From assembly GCF_027595985.1 (NCBI RefSeq), contig NC_073312.1:7878983-7942982 (forward strand): a stretch of 64,000 nt of DNA, given 5' to 3'. Positions 1,157 to 56,300 of the stretch are shown piece after piece. The first letter of the stretch is position 1; every line of letters starts with the position of its first letter. Source of the DNA: Sorex araneus (lineage: Eukaryota > Chordata > Mammalia > Eulipotyphla > Soricidae). The notes beneath the pieces are model-generated. The model saw nothing but the letters and a program-made list of their open reading frames with translations, was not told the origin of the DNA and searched no databases. The translations under genes and the position numbers were made by a program.

Positions 1157-1814
1157 TGGGGTTTTCTTTTCTTTTCTTGATATTTGGGCCACTCCCAGAG
1201 GTGCTCTGGGCTTCTCTGGGCTCTGCTCTGGGCCCTGCTCTGGGGGTCATGTCATACCAGAGTCAGAACCTGCCCTCTTGCATGTGAAACAAGAGCTGCA
1301 GCCTGAGATGGAATTTTCTCTGGCACCTTCCAGCCAGGGAGAAGTGATGTCATCACTGAACTCGGGCATTTCCTAGGGCCATGTCTGGTGACCACTTCCT
1401 AAAGGTCCTCAGTAAAAGGCTGCCCTGGCTCGGAGCTTTTGTGCGTGTCAAAAGCTTTTATCCGGGTACCCTGCCTTGGCTGTGTGCAGGAAGCTCACCC
1501 GGGCTCCCTTGTGCTGCTGTCTGGCTTCACGGCGAGGCGCCCAGGTAGGTTTCGCAAGCAGAGGCCGAGGGCTCGTCTGCAGAGTTACTGCCCGCCTTAC
1601 ATTGCTGCGCCCTGGGGTGCGGCCGGGAGATGGCTCAATGGGCTTCGCATGGAGGAAGCACGGGCTCCTGTCCTGCCCCGGGGAGACCCCTAGGCAAAGA
1701 GCCTGGACTGGAACATTGTCTGGGGCGGCCCAAACCTCTCCCCCTATGAAAGGCTGAGTGTCCCTGGGAGCTTTAAATGGCCCCCAATCTAGATGTCAGC
1801 TTGCCCCAGCAGGG

Positions 1815-1982
1815 TCGGATGAGTATAGGTGACTGTAGGGTGATAGTACGGCGGGTAGGAAGGAGGCTTGCCTTGCACAAGCCCGCCCAGGTTCCATCCC
1901 CGGCATCCTGTGTGGTCCCCCGAGCACCGCCAGGAGTGATCCTGAGATCAGAGTCAGGAGTAAGCCCAGAGCATGGCCAAAG
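1815..1982 (+). mobile_element. SOR-type SINE, diverged
   Basis: Sense copy with recognisable head, B-box-like region and 'gagcaccgccaggagtgatcc' in shortened form, just upstream of the MCMBP CpG island. Confidence 0.75.
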
Positions 1983-2059
1983 CAAGAGGGAAGGTGACTG
2001 TAGGGCTTGGGGCCGGATGCCCTGCAAGGGAGCACGAGAAGAGGAGGTGGGCGGGCCCC

Positions 2060-2618
2060 TGAAACAGCCTTCCCTGCTCTTTCTGTCCCAAGAGGACGCC
2101 GAGGGCGCTGGCCCGGCCGAGAGCGAAGAACCCGAGCCAGGCTCTCGGCCGCACGCCCGGCCAGAGGCACCGACACGCCGCCCGCCGCCGCCCGGTGGCG
2201 CCCGGCCCGGCCCGGCCGCCCCGAGGCCGCGCATGCCCTTTCTCTTGCCCGTCTCCAAGATGGCGTCGGGCCCGTCGGCGCGCCGAGGCCCCGCCCCCGG
2301 CCCGCCCCCGCGGGAGCCGGCCCGCCCCGCCTCCCGCCGCGGGGCCGCGCCGCGCGCGCTCCCGCCGCCCCTCCCCGCGCGAGCTCCACCCAGGTCGCCG
2401 GCAGCGCGGTCGGCGGCGCCTGTTTCCCGCCATTGTGCGAAGTGGAGGCTGGGGGCCGCCCGCGCCGCCCGCCCGTCGCCGCCGCCGCCGCTCCCGGGGG
2501 CCGAGGGGGAGGCGCGGCTCGCGCTGCGGGGGAGGGCGCGGGCGCCGCGCGGCCGAGCCCCCGAGCAGGAGCCGCGGAGCTGGACGCCGGGCCGCGCCGG
2601 CCGCGGGCCGCGGGCGAG
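2060..2618 (+). promoter_or_regulatory. MCMBP: MCMBP CpG-island promoter and 5' UTR
   Basis: Very GC- and CpG-rich sequence runs from about 2060 through exon 1 to about 3600, with no TATA box near the ATG. Visible motifs: an NRF1-like GCGCATGC at 2229-2236, a YY1-like AAGATGGCG at 2257-2265, and an E2F-type TTTCCCGCC at 2423-2431 running into a reverse YY1 core (CCAT). This is the architecture of a housekeeping, S-phase-linked promoter. The transcription start is not determinable from sequence alone; it probably lies between 2260 and 2600. Confidence 0.75.
2423..2431 (+). promoter_or_regulatory. E2F-type site overlapping YY1-like core
   Basis: TTTCCCGCC followed directly by ATTGTG, about 190 bases before the MCMBP start codon. 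MCM-pathway genes are classic E2F targets, so the site fits the gene; binding is inferred. Confidence 0.5.
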
Positions 2619-40406
<37,788 letters not shown>

Positions 40407-47351: not shown

Positions 47352-50300
47352 GGAGGGCTGGGAAAGTTGGGTCACATCCAGCTGTGCTCAGGTCTTACTC
47401 CTGGCTGCTCTGTGCTCAGGGACCACATGGGGTGCCTGGGATCAAACCTGGGACTGCAAGGCAAGGGCTTCGTCCGCTGTACAATCTCAGGCCTGAAACA
47501 TTCCTTCAGTCATTCATTCAGTTACTTCAAATGACACCCATCCATTGGACACTTATTTTTTATAATCTAAAGGACCTCACACAGCTTATGATCATCTGGT
47601 TTGCTAAAGCTATAAATAAAAACTTCAGCCTTGCTATCAGGTATGTAGTGGCTAGAGAGTACGACAGGAGTGCGGCACAGAGCAGGGAAAAACCTTGAGC
47701 ACAGCTGGGTGTGGCCCAAAAACCAAGGACTTACCCATCACTAAATTGACCTTTGTTAGATGATCAAAAGTGATACAATTAGGCTCTATTAATCACTGGT
47801 CTCTGGCGTTTTTAAAGAATAAAGTAGCCCTTTGTGGCTCTTACAAAGGGTACTCTTGATCCACGCTTAAAAGAACCAGTACTTGCTTCCTACCTGATCA
47901 GATCAAAACTTACCTATTTCTATTTTCTCCAGATCTTCCAGACTTAGCCGTTGATACTGGTTTACTTTATCAACTTCATCATCATAACTAAAGGAAGAGA
48001 GGTTCGTTATAAGTGGATTGAATCAAAAGCCAACAGACTTGAGAACTGAGATAAAATACCAAATATAAGCTATGCAGTTAAAATCTTCCATGGCACAAAA
48101 CATTCAAGGGTGAAGAAAATCATTTTAAAAACTAGATGACATAAATTTAATGCAGTAGTTTTAACAGCCAACAAGAAAGCCAGTTTACTGACCATACACT
48201 AAAAAAAAACACATTGAAAATCAAAAATAATTTAATAAAAAATTAGAAAACCAAAACCTGGGAGAATGGCAAAAAGACGTACAGTGAAACTGGGAATAAG
48301 GCAAATAAATCTGACATCCAAAGTCGAGAGGACCAAAGCTCCTTACAACGGATGTCAGTAGGCACCTGGGCCAGGGACCAGAAAAATGACCGTCACGCGG
48401 CTCAGGAGAGCGGCTGCTGACTTAGGGAATTAAACATCAGTGCTGGAAAGGTTAGGAGGAAAGAGAATTTGCGTTCTGGCGTGTGGCGCTGGTATGCGGT
48501 ATCTCTCCGGACTTCAGCCCGGCAATGCAGCACCGACGGCACGTGCCGCATTCACCCGCCCCTAGGAAGGGGGACGCAGTGCGCAGTGCGCAGTGCGCGC
48601 GGACTGCTGCATCATCCTGGCCAGCCACGACCCTGGCTGCCTCCTGGCGGCGAGACATGGAACTGCCGGGCAGCCGCCAGAACAGTGACGTGTGTCAGAG
48701 ACGTGTCCCCCGACAGATGGGAAATAAAACAACTCAAAACGCCGGTTATGATTCGCATCACGTTTCAGAGTGGTGACAAGAGAATCTGCCATGTAACGGG
48801 GGGCGGGGGTAAAGGGGCTCGATGGAGCGTTAGGCATTTCCGTGGCGAGACCATTTTACTGTGTTCGACTCGGAGACCCTAAAAGCAGGCGTCCACCCCC
48901 GTCTGCGTCCACTCGCCCCCTCCCGCCCGGAGCCACTCACTAGGCCACGTAGTAGGCGCAATTGGAAAGCAGCAGCAGCACGTCGACGTCTCGGTGAGTG
49001 GCGTCCGTGAGGCTGCGCAAAGGGGACACCGCATTAGACACTCCTGTCTGCATCTGCATTTCTGCAAGCGCGTTTCTACCGCGGACCCCCCTTAAGGGGG
49101 GCGGGGGGAGGACAGTGAGATGAGGTAATGAGCCCTACTCTGAAATTCAATGCATTCCATCTGTTAAGAAAACAACACCATGACTCGGCAGGTGAGGGGT
49201 GAGGTGGAGGGGTCTGGGGCCAAGCACCCCTCCCCGGAGAGAGGAGGCCGAGGAGCGCGGGGTGGGGGTGGGAGGACCGCAACATAAAGGATCTGGCATA
49301 AAGGACAACAGGCTGAGAAGGGGGCACGACCGTTTTCCAAGACAAACCTGCGCATCTGAAATCATTTTACGCTATCGATTACCCGAAAACACGTAGAAAC
49401 ACACAAAAACGGATCCCAGCCCAGGCTATGTTTCTTTTTTTTTTTTTTGCCCCCCCCCCCATTCAATACAGATTTATTTACTTGGCTTTTAAGGAACAAG
49501 GTGCATTTCCTTTCTCCGCATCTTTTGTTTGGTTTTTGGCCACAAAGACCGCTCATTCCCGGCACAGCTGGGGGCACCCCATGTGGGGCCCGGGCAGGAA
49601 CATGGGGGCAAACAATGCCCGACCCCCCATACTATCTCTGCAGCCCGCACTGCTACTACACTGAAACGAAGAAATATCCTGCACACGCGCACACACACAC
49701 ACACACGCACGCACGCACACACACACACACAAGCGCGCGCATTCTTCCTCATGAACACAAATACGCATCTCTCTGTCAGATCCAATTTTCCAAGACGCTA
49801 AACGCCGCGCTCTGCCCTGGTGGTCGGGGTGGGGGGGGGGGGCGCCCCCGCGGTCACTTACACGGACTCGGGGCCCCGGAGCCACAGCGCGCGCAGGTCT
49901 GCAGGTCTCGCCAGGCGCCCCGCTCCGGGCACAGACTATTGACAGCGGCCGCGGCGCCGCGGCCCGACACTTGGTCCTCAACGAAGAGCGCTCGGCCGCG
50001 ACGGAAAAAAAGCCCCCCGCCCCCCCCCGCCCCCCCGCCCTGCCTCGGCTGCAGGACACAGAAGACCCTCCCCCCCGCCCCCCCTAGCACAGAGATACAC
50101 AACAAGACACGACACGACACAACACGATACGACACGACGCAGTGCGGGAAACGCTGCTGCCCGGGGACCCCGCACTGCCCGGGGGACGCGCCGCCCCGGC
50201 CCGCGCTAGTCGTCCTTGCTGTCGGGCCACCCGAGCTGGCTCTCCTTCCACGCCACGAACACGAACACGGCCAGCACCATGTGCAGCCCCGCCACGGCCA

Positions 50301-53300
50301 CGATGGTGGCGTAGAAGCCGCTATCGTCGGGCGACATGTGCAGGAGGCCCTGGAAAAGGAGCAGCTTGGCGGGGAAATAGAGGCCCACGGGCACTTTCAT
50401 CAGGAGTCCGGCGAAGAGGAGGACCATTTTGAAGGCAGAGGCCAGGCTGGGGCCGTCCGGGATGGGCTCCGGGGCGCGGGCGGCCGCGCGGGCAGCCGCG
50501 GGCCGCTGGACGCTGCGCACTCGCCGGTGGGAGCGGGGCATCGTGGCGGCGGGCTCGGCTGGGGCTCGGCGCGTCCTTCCTTCTGGGGAGCTCAGCGAGC
50601 ACCGACCGGCTGCACCGAGACCGACGCAGCAACTGCGGCTCTCGGCGCGTCACCCTCTGCCCGCCGCACCGCGGCACGCCAGGGCGCAGGCGCAGCCCGC
50701 CCCTCTGCGCCAGGACGCGGGCGGGGCACTGCGGCAGGCGCGGGCGCGCCGGGCTGCGCGGGGGCGCGGGCGCGGGCACCGGTGCTCACTCCCGGGGCAG
50801 GGGTACTCTGCGGCACTCCGGGGTGCACGAGCACCGGCGCCCCTGCGGCACTCTAGGGGCGCGGGCACTGGTGCCTTTGCGGCACTCCGGGGGGACACTA
50901 GGGGGTCGCGGGCACTAGAGCTCTCCACAACATTGTGGGGGGACACTCTGGGGGCGCGGGCACCAGCGTTCTCCACAACATTGCGGGGGGACCCTCCGGG
51001 GGCGCGGGCACCAGAGCTCTCCACAACAATGCGGGGGGACCCTCCGGGGGCGCGGGCACCAGAGCTCTCCACAACAATGCGGGGGGACCCTCCGGGGGCG
51101 CGGGTACCAGAGCTCTCCACAACAATGCGGGGGGACCCTCCGGGGGCGCGGGCACCAGAGCTCTCCACAACAATGCGGGGGGACCCTCCGGGGGCGCGGG
51201 CACCAAAGCTCTCCACGACATTGCGGGGGGACTCTCCGGGGGCGCGGGCACCAAAGCTCTCCACGACACTCCAGGTGGATGAGCAACAGTTCCCCTGCAG
51301 CACTCCGTGGGGACGCGGATACCAGGGTCTCTGCGGCACTTCGGGGGGACACTCCGGGGGCGCGGGCACCAGAGCTCTCCACGACACTCCGGGTGGATGA
51401 GCACTGGTGCCCCTGCAGCACTCCGTGAGGACGCGGATACCAGGGTCTCTGCGGTACTCCGGGGGGACACTCCGGGGGGACACTCCGGGGGCGCGGGCAC
51501 CAGAGGTCTCCATGACACTCTAGGTGCATGAGCACTGGTGCCCCTGCGGCACTCTGGGGGGACATGGATGCCAGGGTCTCTGCGGCACTCCGGAGGGGCA
51601 CTCCGGGGGCGCGGGCACCAGAGCTCTCCACGACACTCTGGGGGGACACCCCGGGGGCGCGGGCACCAGAGCTCTCCACGGTGCCCCAGGTGGATGAGCA
51701 CCGGCGCCCCTGCGGCACTTCGGTGGGCCGCGGGTACGGGGGTCTCTGCGGCACTCCGGGGGCACAAGCACCGGTGCCTCTGCGGCACTCGGGTGGTGCG
51801 GGCTGACCAGTGCCCCCCGCGGGCAGGGAGCCGCGCACGCCCGCCCGGCCCGCGCCGAGGAGATCACGGACCACTGCAGGGCCGGAAGCTCGGGCGGGGC
51901 TGCACAACCTGCAGGGGCGGGGGTGGGCGCAGTCGGGGAGAAGGGGGCGCCGCAACAGCCGCATTGGCGTTTCTGCAATGGCCGCTTGGCACAACATCCC
52001 TCTGCCAAAGAGCCCGGCCACCAAAACTACGTATATATACACACACGTATATATATTTTTCTTTTTGTTTTTGTTTCTGGGCTATACCCGGCAGTATCCC
52101 GGGCTTACACCTGACTCTGTGCTCAGGGACAATTTCTGGCGGGGACTGGGAGGGCAAAGGGGCCCCCTGGAGGGGTGCTGCTCTGCACCGAAGGCAAATA
52201 CCCTTGTTTTATCCTCTAGCCGACCGCTCCAGCCCCATCAGGATACTTGTTTGGTGTGGATTTTTTTCTGCGTTTTCCTTTTTTTTTTCCTTGCGGCTAC
52301 ACTCAGCAGAGCGCAGGAAACCACTCCTGGTGGGGCTCAGGGGAATATATGTGGTGCAGAGATCAAACCCTGGTGGCTGGGAGTAAGGCAAGCTGTGCTC
52401 TCTGGACCCAAAGCATGGTATAAATTCTGTCTCCATAAAGGTATTTTAAAAAAAAATCACACAAAACCCAAAAGAAGGAAGAAAAAAAAAAAACAGCAAC
52501 TGCTTCCCTTGCAGGAATAAGCCCAGATCCTCTCCTGAATGCCACACACAGTCCTTGAGCCCCACCACGACTGATCCCAGAGTGGAGAGCCAGGAATAAG
52601 CCCTGGGCCCCACCAGGCACAGCCCCAAACAAACAATAACCTTTTAAAAGTCCCGCAGAATCCAAGAGCGGATGGTTCAAGCCCCTCCGCCCCCCACAGC
52701 CCGCCTTTGCAGTCCTTCCCAGGGCAGCCTCCCTGCCACACCTCGGCCATCCGCCCTGGTCCACAGCCTGAGCTCAGTTACTAGCGAGGTTTCGGAAAGG
52801 GGAAGACTACCCACCACTGGGAAACTCTTCGAGCATTGCGAATTAAGAAGTGGAGAGAGATGCAATTGTCAAGAAATCTTGGCAAAGCTGCAAAGGGTGA
52901 GACCTATTCGGGCGGCCACTCTGACGGACAGCAGCTGCCCAGCACAGCGCGCAAAGAGAACGGCTTCATAACGTGAAGATGATGACTTTGAGGCTCCCAC
53001 CTGAAGGCACTCTGGTGGATAAGCTCAGATCTTGCCACTGACATTCTGAAGAACCATTTGAAGGCTTGTTGAATTTGGGGATGGGGGCGGGGGTGGGGGG
53101 GCAGGGCCCAGAGCCTTCTCTCAGTGTGCGGTGCTTGGGGGCACCATGGACACCAGCAGCCAACAAGCAGCCCGCGCTCGGCCCCACTGGTGGGTCTCGT
53201 TTATAGAAATGTTTCAGGCACACATCGGCCCATTTCTCTCACGAGATGCCAGGAAGCCTTTACGACCCACCAGGTCTCTGGCTCCGTGTTGTGCTCCACA

Positions 53301-56300
53301 CGCGCATTCACGCAAACCCAGGTTTGGGGCCAGGGCAGAGGCCCACAGAGCCACCTCTAAACTACAGCTCTTCGGTTTAGAAGCGCAGATATTGCATTAA
53401 GAAGCTTCTTCCTTACTGAGCTTTCAATGCCTTCCTAATCTCTGCACCCCAGCGGTGCCCTGTCACATCCGGCCACCAGCGTATAACTGAAAGCTGCCAC
53501 GCTGACGTCTCAGCCCGCAGCTCCAGGAATCCTGCCAGGGTTTACCGCAAGGACTCGGTGTGCTCGTCAGTCACCAGACCCCCCCGGCCCCCCGACTCAC
53601 CTGGGGTCACAGTCAATGAGGGCCCAGCCCCCATGGAATGTTTCGTCATCAGGCAGCAGCAGCCTCATGTAGCTCTGCAAGAGCTGACTGATGAGTTCCT
53701 GGTGGCTCCTCTGAGTGTCCTTGTGCAAAGCCTCGTGCTCTTTCTCCTTGGTAAATATGGAATAAAGATCTTCTGTCACTGGGATGCCTTGCATCAAATC
53801 TGGAGTGGAAAGTGTCACATCTATCGTCACCTTCATTTATGAGGACAAACGTTTTACTTCTCTTGGCTTGTGCGGTACCAGGAACCGAGCCCAGGGCTGC
53901 ACACATGCAAGGCAGTGCTCTACCTCCGAGCCACATTCCTGTCCCCTCACACATTTTTACAAACAAAAAGAATGTAAGACCTGAAACAATGAAGCTTTTT
54001 GTTTTGCTTTGTCTTGTGTTTGGCCCACATTCAGCTGTGCTCAGGACTTACTCCTGGCAGTGCGCAGGGGACCATATAAGAACCCGACCCTGGGTGAGCT
54101 GCATGAAAAGCAAGCATGCCTTACTGCTTGGACTACCTTTCCCGCCACAATTTTTATTTGAAAGCCTTATTTTTTTTTTTTTGGGGGGGGTACTTGTGCA
54201 ATACCCAACAGTGCTCAAAGATCGCTCCTGGCAGAGCTCAGGCCCTATGTGCTGCTGGCTAGATGTAATGTGACCAAACTGGGGCAGCCGTATGCAAGGC
54301 AAGGTCCTCAACCCATTCTGTCCAGCCCCAAACACCACCCCGCCTTTTTGGGGGAGTTTTGAGCTAAGTTCAGCAATGCTCAGGGCTGACTCCTGGCTCT
54401 GCGCTCAGGGATCACTCCTGGTGGTGCTCAGGGGGCCAAATGAAATGACAGGGATCAACCACATGCAGGGATACCCTACCTGCTGCACTAACACTGCGGC
54501 CCCTACAACTCTTATAAGAAAACACAGGCATAAACAGTCGTGACCTAGGATTAGGCAATAACAAAATGCGACACCCAAATTACAAAGAAATAATAACAAA
54601 ACGCAGACCAGACATCAACAGAATTTGAGAAATTTTTGCTTCAAATGGGAGAGGCTACCTTTTGGAAACAAGTTCCTACCTGGTAAGGTTGTGAGAACAA
54701 CTAAGCCATGACAAGGTAAATAATTCCGTCAATAAGCGGGCAAAGGAACAGCACAGGCAAGCGCCTTCTTCCTGGTCTGGCCCGGGGCTCACACTTGAAT
54801 AAAGCCCTCTCATCTGACTCCCTGTGGCTATCTGAATGGAGCACTCAGCTTAGAGGAGTGTTCAAGAACACCGCCTGAGAGGGGGGCAGCAAATCCAATG
54901 CTTCTGGCCTTTCCCCCTCAGTCAGGCCGGGCTGAGCTGATGTTACAGATGGTGAACAAGAGCCAGGGTTCTCAAGACATAATTGTGTGGCTATATCAAC
55001 CAGAAAAAAGCATCTTAACTTTCCTCAAACTGGTAGGAAACAATTTTCCACTCAGGACATTCTATCTGTGGCAAATAACTTCATTACACCAAATTTCCCA
55101 AACTCCTAAGCAGTCTGTGACTCAAGTCTTCATAAGTTTCATGTGTGAAGGAGTATATAACTGTTAGGCTGCAAGGTAAACTGTTTCAGCAATAGAGAGA
55201 AGCTCAGAACGAGTTCTTCTTACATCTGGCCCGATCCAAAACATTCTACATTTGCTTTAATTCTCTAAGGTAATATTTTCATTAATAGTAAATGAAAAAA
55301 AATGCCAAGGTGTGTATATGTATATATATATGTATATATAATATATAGTGTTTAGGTTGCCATATTTATAACCCCTACTTCCTCTACTCAATAATAAGAG
55401 TAGTTAGGATAATCTCTAAATCTGATACTCTAATCCTACCCTATTAAATCAGACTCATAGGGAAAGTTCGGTGTATTTACCCACAGCAGAAGATATGATT
55501 AGTGTAATAAGGGGAAAGAATTATACTTATCAGTTTGACTAACAGAAAAGCAAAGGGAATGTGAAGTTTTCAGTAGATGCATTTTGGGGTTTTCTTTGGG
55601 GGGTGGGCCCACAGCTGGCTGTACTAAGGGCTTACTCGTGGCTTTGAGATCAGGGATCACTCCTGGTGGGGCTCTGGGGACTATATCAAGTGTGGTGGAT
55701 CAACCCAGGACGGCCACAGACAAGACAAGTGCCCTGCCTGCTGTACTATCTCTCCGGCCCCAGTTGTTGAAGTTTTAGGGTGCCTTATTTCAGGCCCCAG
55801 AAGGCTCCTGTGACATCAATAGCAAACTGACAGTTAAGGAAACAGTGGTTCCTTCTCTTGCAGCATACCAAAATAGCTGTCAAATGCTAATCTTGCAATA
55901 GCCTGAATCTGATTTTTAGGTACCATGTTTGGTAACAGAAACAAGGATATAATAAAACACAGAAGCTAAGTTAATCAAGTTAACTTCTATAAAATGTCAG
56001 CCACAGAAAGACCTTTGTGTTTCTTACCTATGACTGCTTGCCTGTAAGCATCCTTAAACCGGTTCAGGTAATACCTGTTGGCCGAGTTCACACCATCCTT
56101 CATCACGCCCACCAACTTCCTTTCTCCAGTCCTTGTGAAGTCGCCCTTGGGAAGTCAAGGAAACAGACAATTGGACAATTTATTCAGACACAAGAAAGTT
56201 TCCAAAGCCCATGTGGGCTTTCCATTCAAGACTGGAATTCTATACAATTTGAAAATGCCTAAACTGGGGCTAGAGTGATAGTACAACGGATAGGATGTTT

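Follow-up and report, generated by a model that had tools for sequence, protein, structure and literature searches.

A retrocopy of X-linked VMA21 within INPP5F intron 15 of the shrew Sorex araneus, a probable counterpart of the imprinted Inpp5f_v2 locus

A stretch of 64,000 nucleotides (nt) from the shrew Sorex araneus (assembly GCF_027595985.1, contig NC_073312.1, positions 7,878,983 to 7,942,982 of the forward strand; the whole stretch is referred to here as the window) contains an intronless reading frame derived from VMA21, which lies in intron 15 of INPP5F and on the same (minus) strand as that gene. We favour the reading that this locus is the orthologue of Inpp5f_v2, the imprinted retrogene of mouse and human, and that a transcript from the paternal chromosome, a maternal mark on the CpG island and a partly constrained frame together explain what is seen; the probability of this joint explanation is put at about 0.8. 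Descent of the frame from a spliced VMA21 gene is established by the comparisons made here, and the age of the insertion is taken from published work. The locus is real but largely expected, being one more orthologue of a locus already known, to which some detail is added. A first-pass annotation of this DNA had reported a 111-codon intronless frame on the INPP5F strand, with two membrane segments and collinear VMA21 similarity from about residue 30 to the end, set in a CpG island in intron 15 and descended from a multi-exonic, X-linked parent, and these statements are borne out by the results that follow, the membrane segments as two hydrophobic stretches (coordinates are collected in Table 1).

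The frame is recognized by the Pfam VMA21 profile (PF09446), with residues 36-98 matching profile positions 2-64 of 64 (E 6.8e-13) and with a score, 49 bits, that stands above the curated cut-off of 29.5. From residue 32 to its last residue the frame aligns with human VMA21 without a gap, 42 of the 80 residues being identical and 38 different. (The human query sequence was borne out by the parent gene in the same genome.) Aligned with that parent, again without gaps, 41 of the 80 residues are identical and 39 are changed. Hydropathy indicates two hydrophobic segments, at about 30-63 and 74-101, which would fit two membrane segments, and a structure model made from the single sequence places helices at 33-49, 52-68, and 74-102, with moderate confidence only (mean predicted local distance difference test score 73.8, predicted template-modelling score 0.39). 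At the C-terminus the frame reads SKDD where VMA21 has GKQD, so in sequence the XKXD form is retained. According to PMC13142848, XKXD is the form of the tail in animal VMA21, both the N- and the C-terminus of the protein are cytosolic, and mutation of the human KQD sends the protein to lysosomes. Sequence searches of the PDB, both with the retrogene and with human VMA21, returned nothing at E up to 1. No relatives were confirmed among 10 and 137 pattern matches in viral and prokaryotic contig collections, a result that says little given that these collections hold viruses and prokaryotes only.

A VMA21 profile search of the shrew's own genome (2.4 gigabases, 65 contigs, with 33 of 33 first-look candidates scored) gave four places: the copy in the window, an uninterrupted copy on contig C5, and two places on contig C12 that are exons of a spliced gene. 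The gene on C12 has three coding exons (53, 110, and 143 nt), and its product of 101 residues is close to human VMA21. The same contig carries the androgen receptor gene, which is X-linked in therian mammals; at 374 Mb, a contig with X-linked genes would agree with the fused X chromosome of Sorex. Because the parent is spliced and lies on the contig that bears the androgen receptor gene, and because the copy in the window is intronless and lies on C11, the latter is a retrocopy of an X-linked gene. Its 80 aligned codons cross the junction between parent exons 2 and 3 without an intron; the part that would correspond to exon 1 is unrecognizable. Besides these 80 collinear residues, the retrogene shares with its parent, a vacuolar ATPase (V-ATPase) assembly chaperone, the two hydrophobic segments, the XKXD-type tail, and Asp63. 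It is unlike the parent in its different and longer N-terminus, its Ser in place of Gly91, its lack of introns, and its location on another contig. Alignment of the 5' and 3' flanks of the retrogene with the flanking parts of the parent was no better than that obtained with shuffles (91 of 500 and 26 of 200, respectively, were as good), and the other flank comparisons with the parent gave only a 70-base match to exon 3 and repeat-like matches.

The uninterrupted copy on C5 (about 172046865-172047321; L006:4865-5321) is a second, young VMA21 retrocopy. It has an intact 101-codon frame that differs from the parent at 7 of 306 bases, with 4 amino-acid changes, and it is accompanied by AATAAA, a poly(A) tail, and a perfect target-site duplication of 17 base pairs (bp). 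A longer muscle isoform of the protein, VMA21-120, uses another first exon (PMC13142848). Descent of the retrogene in the window from this isoform is unsupported: in one 10-kilobase (kb) piece, a single candidate for the first exon satisfied the filter on length and donor, and its local score to the retrogene N-terminus was 12, a score without a significance figure.

INPP5F occupies the upper part of the window, with exons on both sides of the retrogene. Nineteen of its exons were matched to human INPP5F, with the search extended upstream in the same genome, and a twentieth is short and mostly reads N, leaving only its last residues and its donor visible. With 20 exons counted, the retrogene falls in intron 15. 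Four exons and the last exon lie downstream of the retrogene, and PMC2585789 likewise describes four exons and the last exon downstream for mouse Inpp5f_v2; the mouse host intron is 5,329 bp long (PMC3107425). The candidate donor of the retrogene exon is positioned 344 bases beyond the stop and scored 6.78, compared with 7.19, 9.39, and 11.14 for three INPP5F donors scored in register.

PMC3107425 (2011) named Vma21 as the parent of Inpp5f_v2 and dated the insertion to the interval between the marsupial-placental split and the divergence of Xenarthra and Afrotheria; it reports orthologues from elephant and armadillo but not from opossum. No shrew is named in the main text of that paper, including the species of its section 4. 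A claim of novelty for the locus, its age, or its pattern of nonsynonymous to synonymous substitution rates would be unsupported, since these were published in 2011. The first-pass annotation had proposed that the shrew insertion is the same as that of mouse and human, and thus older than the split of shrews from primates and rodents; this holds, with the age coming from PMC3107425 and not from sequences aligned here. Like Inpp5f_v2/INPP5F_V2 (mouse, human, and macaque; elephant and armadillo), the shrew locus has a VMA21-derived intronless frame in INPP5F intron 15, a CpG island at its 5' end, and the four shared exons and last exon downstream. It is unlike them in that its frame has 111 codons, as against the 321-bp mouse interval given in PMC3107425. 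The same paper describes Mcts2, Nap1l5, and U2af1-rs1 (Zrsr1), which are similarly retrocopies of X-linked genes that lie in host introns and are imprinted there, and which have other parents and other host genes. Mouse Inpp5f_v2 is paternally expressed and its island is maternally methylated, as is the human promoter (PMC9241299). PMC4410944 lists mouse Inpp5f as one of the maternal somatic differentially methylated regions to which ATRX binds, and expression of INPP5F_v2 is monoallelic in macaque (PMC4417110).

Selection on the frame was investigated by comparison with the parent, from which it differs at 101 of 240 aligned bases (first codon positions account for 32 of these differences, second for 18, and third for 51). 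The proportion of synonymous differences (ps) is 0.78, which is saturated, and that of nonsynonymous differences (pn) is 0.31, giving a pn/ps of 0.39 (bootstrap 0.27-0.53). Under a neutral model with a G+C bias, none of 1000 runs reached so low a ratio with either of two kappas. This one-branch test is too lenient, since constraint acts on the parent branch as well, and a two-branch simulation, which couples a constrained parent branch to a neutral retrogene branch (12 settings of 200 runs each, 2,400 in all), was therefore added. When the parent synonymous distance was set to 0.3 or 0.6, the observed pn/ps was matched by 0 of 200 runs in each of six settings; at a distance of 1.0, it was matched by 5, 0, and 3 of 200. 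Taken alone, the ratio therefore settles the matter only for a parent branch of limited length. The difference between G+C at third and at second codon positions hardly depends on the parent branch. In the retrogene these values are 91% and 35%, with flanks at 80% and 72%, and the resulting gap of 0.56 was reached by none of the 2,400 two-branch runs (the simulation maximum being 0.30); second-position G+C as low as 0.35 was seen in a single run of the 2,400. In a frameshift simulation, which assumed 0.1 insertion or deletion per substitution, a single run of 2000 kept the whole frame open at 0.2 substitutions per site, and none of 2000 did so at 0.3, 0.45, or 0.6. A cruder test agrees in part: the BLOSUM sum is unusual (7 and 19 of 1000 neutral runs were as high); the count of conservative substitutions is not (287 and 299 of 1000). 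In published work, constraint in every lineage was found at 45% of sites, and an omega of about 0.80 at 55% of codons on the retrogene lineages (PMC3107425). The simulations support partial coding constraint on the frame, which is looser than that on the parent; the first-pass annotation had taken the long survival of the open frame as a hint of a working protein.

The region surrounding the frame, 48251-52350, is CpG-island-like by the criteria applied, and its core (49750-51950) has a G+C content of 0.72, a CpG observed/expected ratio of 0.82, and 235 CpGs. Upstream of the retrogene, the island holds a tandem array whose 48-bp unit is present in 7.9 copies at 50888-51268; nothing similar to the array was found elsewhere within the window at E 1e-5. 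The hexamer TGCCGC, the site of ZFP57, occurs 22 times in the window, and 11 of these occurrences form a cluster here. In the island core 11 are observed where 4.0 are expected, and 1 of 500 shuffles had a count as high. PMC9241299 assigns ZFP57 sites a role in imprints and reports a predicted control region at cattle INPP5F_V2. Direct repeats are described near imprinted promoters, where one locus requires them and others do not (PMC1657038).

Several observations weigh against so straightforward an account. Over its first 31 residues the frame is not significantly similar to VMA21-101 (342 of 2000 shuffles were as good, as were 91 of 500 at the DNA level), and the first 31 codons show little contrast among codon positions (G+C of 0.87, 0.74, and 0.94). 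With a parent synonymous distance of 2.0, the observed pn/ps is matched by 45, 38, and 36 of 200 neutral runs, and a stop-free frame is by itself weak evidence, given that 14-40% of neutral runs have no stops. The number of TGCCGC hexamers is inflated by tandem duplication, with 9 of the 11 lying within the array and thus not being independent; moreover, of the 1091 hexamers with one CpG (complements counted apart), 24 outnumber TGCCGC in the island, and TGCCGC ranks third among the 36 hexamers of its own composition. As for other species, the methylation mark is absent from macaque oocytes at INPP5F_v2 (PMC4417110). PMC2585789 calls the paternal allele methylated, contrary to the maternal methylation of PMC9241299 and PMC4410944, and reports a paternal bias of full-length Inpp5f as well, in the brain of newborn mice.

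Some of these points would be accommodated if the copy mattered only as a CpG-island promoter or imprinting control region for a short INPP5F transcript, with the frame a leftover that makes no working protein. Such a promoter relic would agree with constraint looser than that on the parent (the 38 of 80 residues that differ from human VMA21), with the omega of about 0.80 at 55% of codons in retrogene lineages, with an N-terminus of 31 residues that is not recognizable as VMA21, with the survival of a stop-free frame in 14-40% of neutral runs, and with the statement in PMC3107425 that direct evidence of Inpp5f_v2 protein products was lacking at the time. It is nevertheless judged unlikely, as the K-D-D retrieval tail and both hydrophobic segments have been retained, the 80 aligned codons contain no gap (a frame rarely or never kept in the frameshift runs, at 0.2 and at 0.3 or more substitutions per site, respectively), and the gap between second- and third-position G+C, within flanks of 72-80%, was absent from all neutral runs. 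Much less probable again is an independent, later retroposition of VMA21 into the same intron, separate from the Inpp5f_v2 insertion. VMA21 has been retroposed recently in this genome, as the young, intact copy on C5 with its target-site duplication and poly(A) tail attests, and the A run preceded by AATAAA downstream of the window copy could be a tail. However, the synonymous sites of the window copy are saturated relative to the parent (ps 0.78), which makes it old, its 3' flank resembles the 3' part of the parent no better than shuffles do (26 of 200), and it would take a coincidence for a separate copy to share its intron, its strand, and its island with the mouse and human loci. The A run is ambiguous in any case: it may be the remnant of a retroposition tail or, since 14 A's would hardly survive from so old an insertion, it may have arisen by later insertion or slippage. 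Finally, a chance frame in a G+C-rich island, without relation to VMA21, is rejected with next to no doubt. The island does hold several long frames that look mechanical, on both strands and up to 469 codons, but the Pfam E value, the ungapped match over 80 residues, and the passage of that match across the parent exon 2-exon 3 junction without an intron are not those of a chance frame.

If the locus is, as we favour, the orthologue of Inpp5f_v2, its history would begin with the ancient retroposition of a spliced copy of X-chromosome VMA21 into INPP5F intron 15, before the placental radiation. The retrocopy and its flank, which now form part of an observed CpG island, would then have come to serve as a promoter. 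By analogy with mouse and human, a transcript from the paternal chromosome probably starts near 50.55-50.8 kb, has a first exon that holds the whole frame, and would be joined, from a donor such as that at 49862, to INPP5F exon 16 and the exons that follow; by the same analogy, the maternal copy of the island is probably methylated. This maternal mark would probably be retained through ZFP57 bound to the observed TGCCGC motifs, and the frame has been retained under partial coding constraint. The likeliest product would be a small, two-helix membrane protein, which might cycle between endoplasmic reticulum and Golgi by means of its K-D-D tail, and could assist V-ATPase assembly as an accessory chaperone or a modified one; this account of the product has less support than the steps of transcription and imprinting. 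A bolder proposal, offered tentatively and with more doubt than confidence, is that the product is a second V-ATPase assembly factor dosed from the paternal allele, in which the VMA21 hairpin and retrieval tail are joined to a new basic N-terminal tail; the imprint would then tune organelle acidification in the brain, and the tandem array of this lineage would have multiplied ZFP57 sites in one orientation.

Table 1. Features of the retrogene locus and its surroundings (positions are those of the window)
Feature	Position	Strand	Remarks
INPP5F exon 15	53601..53800	minus	Pfam hSac2 is matched weakly (E 0.00062), at 19.8 bits against a cut-off of 26
Host intron 15 of INPP5F	49013..53600	minus	4,588 bp; donor GTGAGT, acceptor GCGCAG; from exon matches and splice sites
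G+C-rich tandem array	50808..51796	none	Related units of about 34, 48, and 118 bp; roughly 1 kb, upstream of retrogene
Cluster of 11 TGCCGC hexamers (ZFP57 site)	50671..51787	minus	Every copy on the strand of the retrogene; upstream of ATG by about 135 to 1,246 bp
Presumed promoter	50542..50800	minus	Directly upstream of ATG; G+C 0.80 and CpG observed/expected 1.06 on 50542-50760; role suggested by mouse and human
Intronless VMA21-derived open reading frame	50206..50541	minus	111 codons and TAG stop; from open reading frame list, Pfam, and alignment to VMA21
C-terminal K-D-D codons	50209..50217	minus	Consistent with XKXD, described as the signal that retrieves animal VMA21 to the endoplasmic reticulum
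Candidate 3' end of retrogene exon, donor CGT/GTAAGT	49862..49864	minus	Top-scoring donor among positions scanned, 49015-50759; putative splicing use
Run of 14 A	49435..49448	minus (retrogene strand)	Lies 758 nt beyond the stop codon, with AATAAA 30 nt before it, at 728 nt
INPP5F exon 16 (matched part)	48943..49012	minus	First of the four exons and last exon downstream of retrogene

Two other features of the window touch on this locus. A plus-strand frame of 469 codons (49447-50856) runs antisense to the retrogene; it has a TTG start, passes through simple repeats, and looks mechanical. MCMBP lies on the plus strand and runs toward INPP5F, with a CpG island of 2.2 kb (1801-4000, 296 CpGs) over its exon 1 at 2619; a plain count, made without a shuffle comparison, gives 0 TGCCGC in this promoter island, which served as the control.

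The detail added here to what was known of Inpp5f_v2 consists of the pn/ps of 0.39 to the parent, the gap between third- and second-position G+C, the K-D-D tail, the tandem array, and the TGCCGC cluster. The shrew thus contributes one more placental genome to a locus that is used for asking how imprinting arises after retroposition. With parent, old retrocopy, and fresh retrocopy all present in one genome, coding constraint becomes testable without outside alignments. The retained retrieval tail and the strongly coding-like base composition argue that the locus still encodes a VMA21-like product, a point that was left open by PMC3107425.

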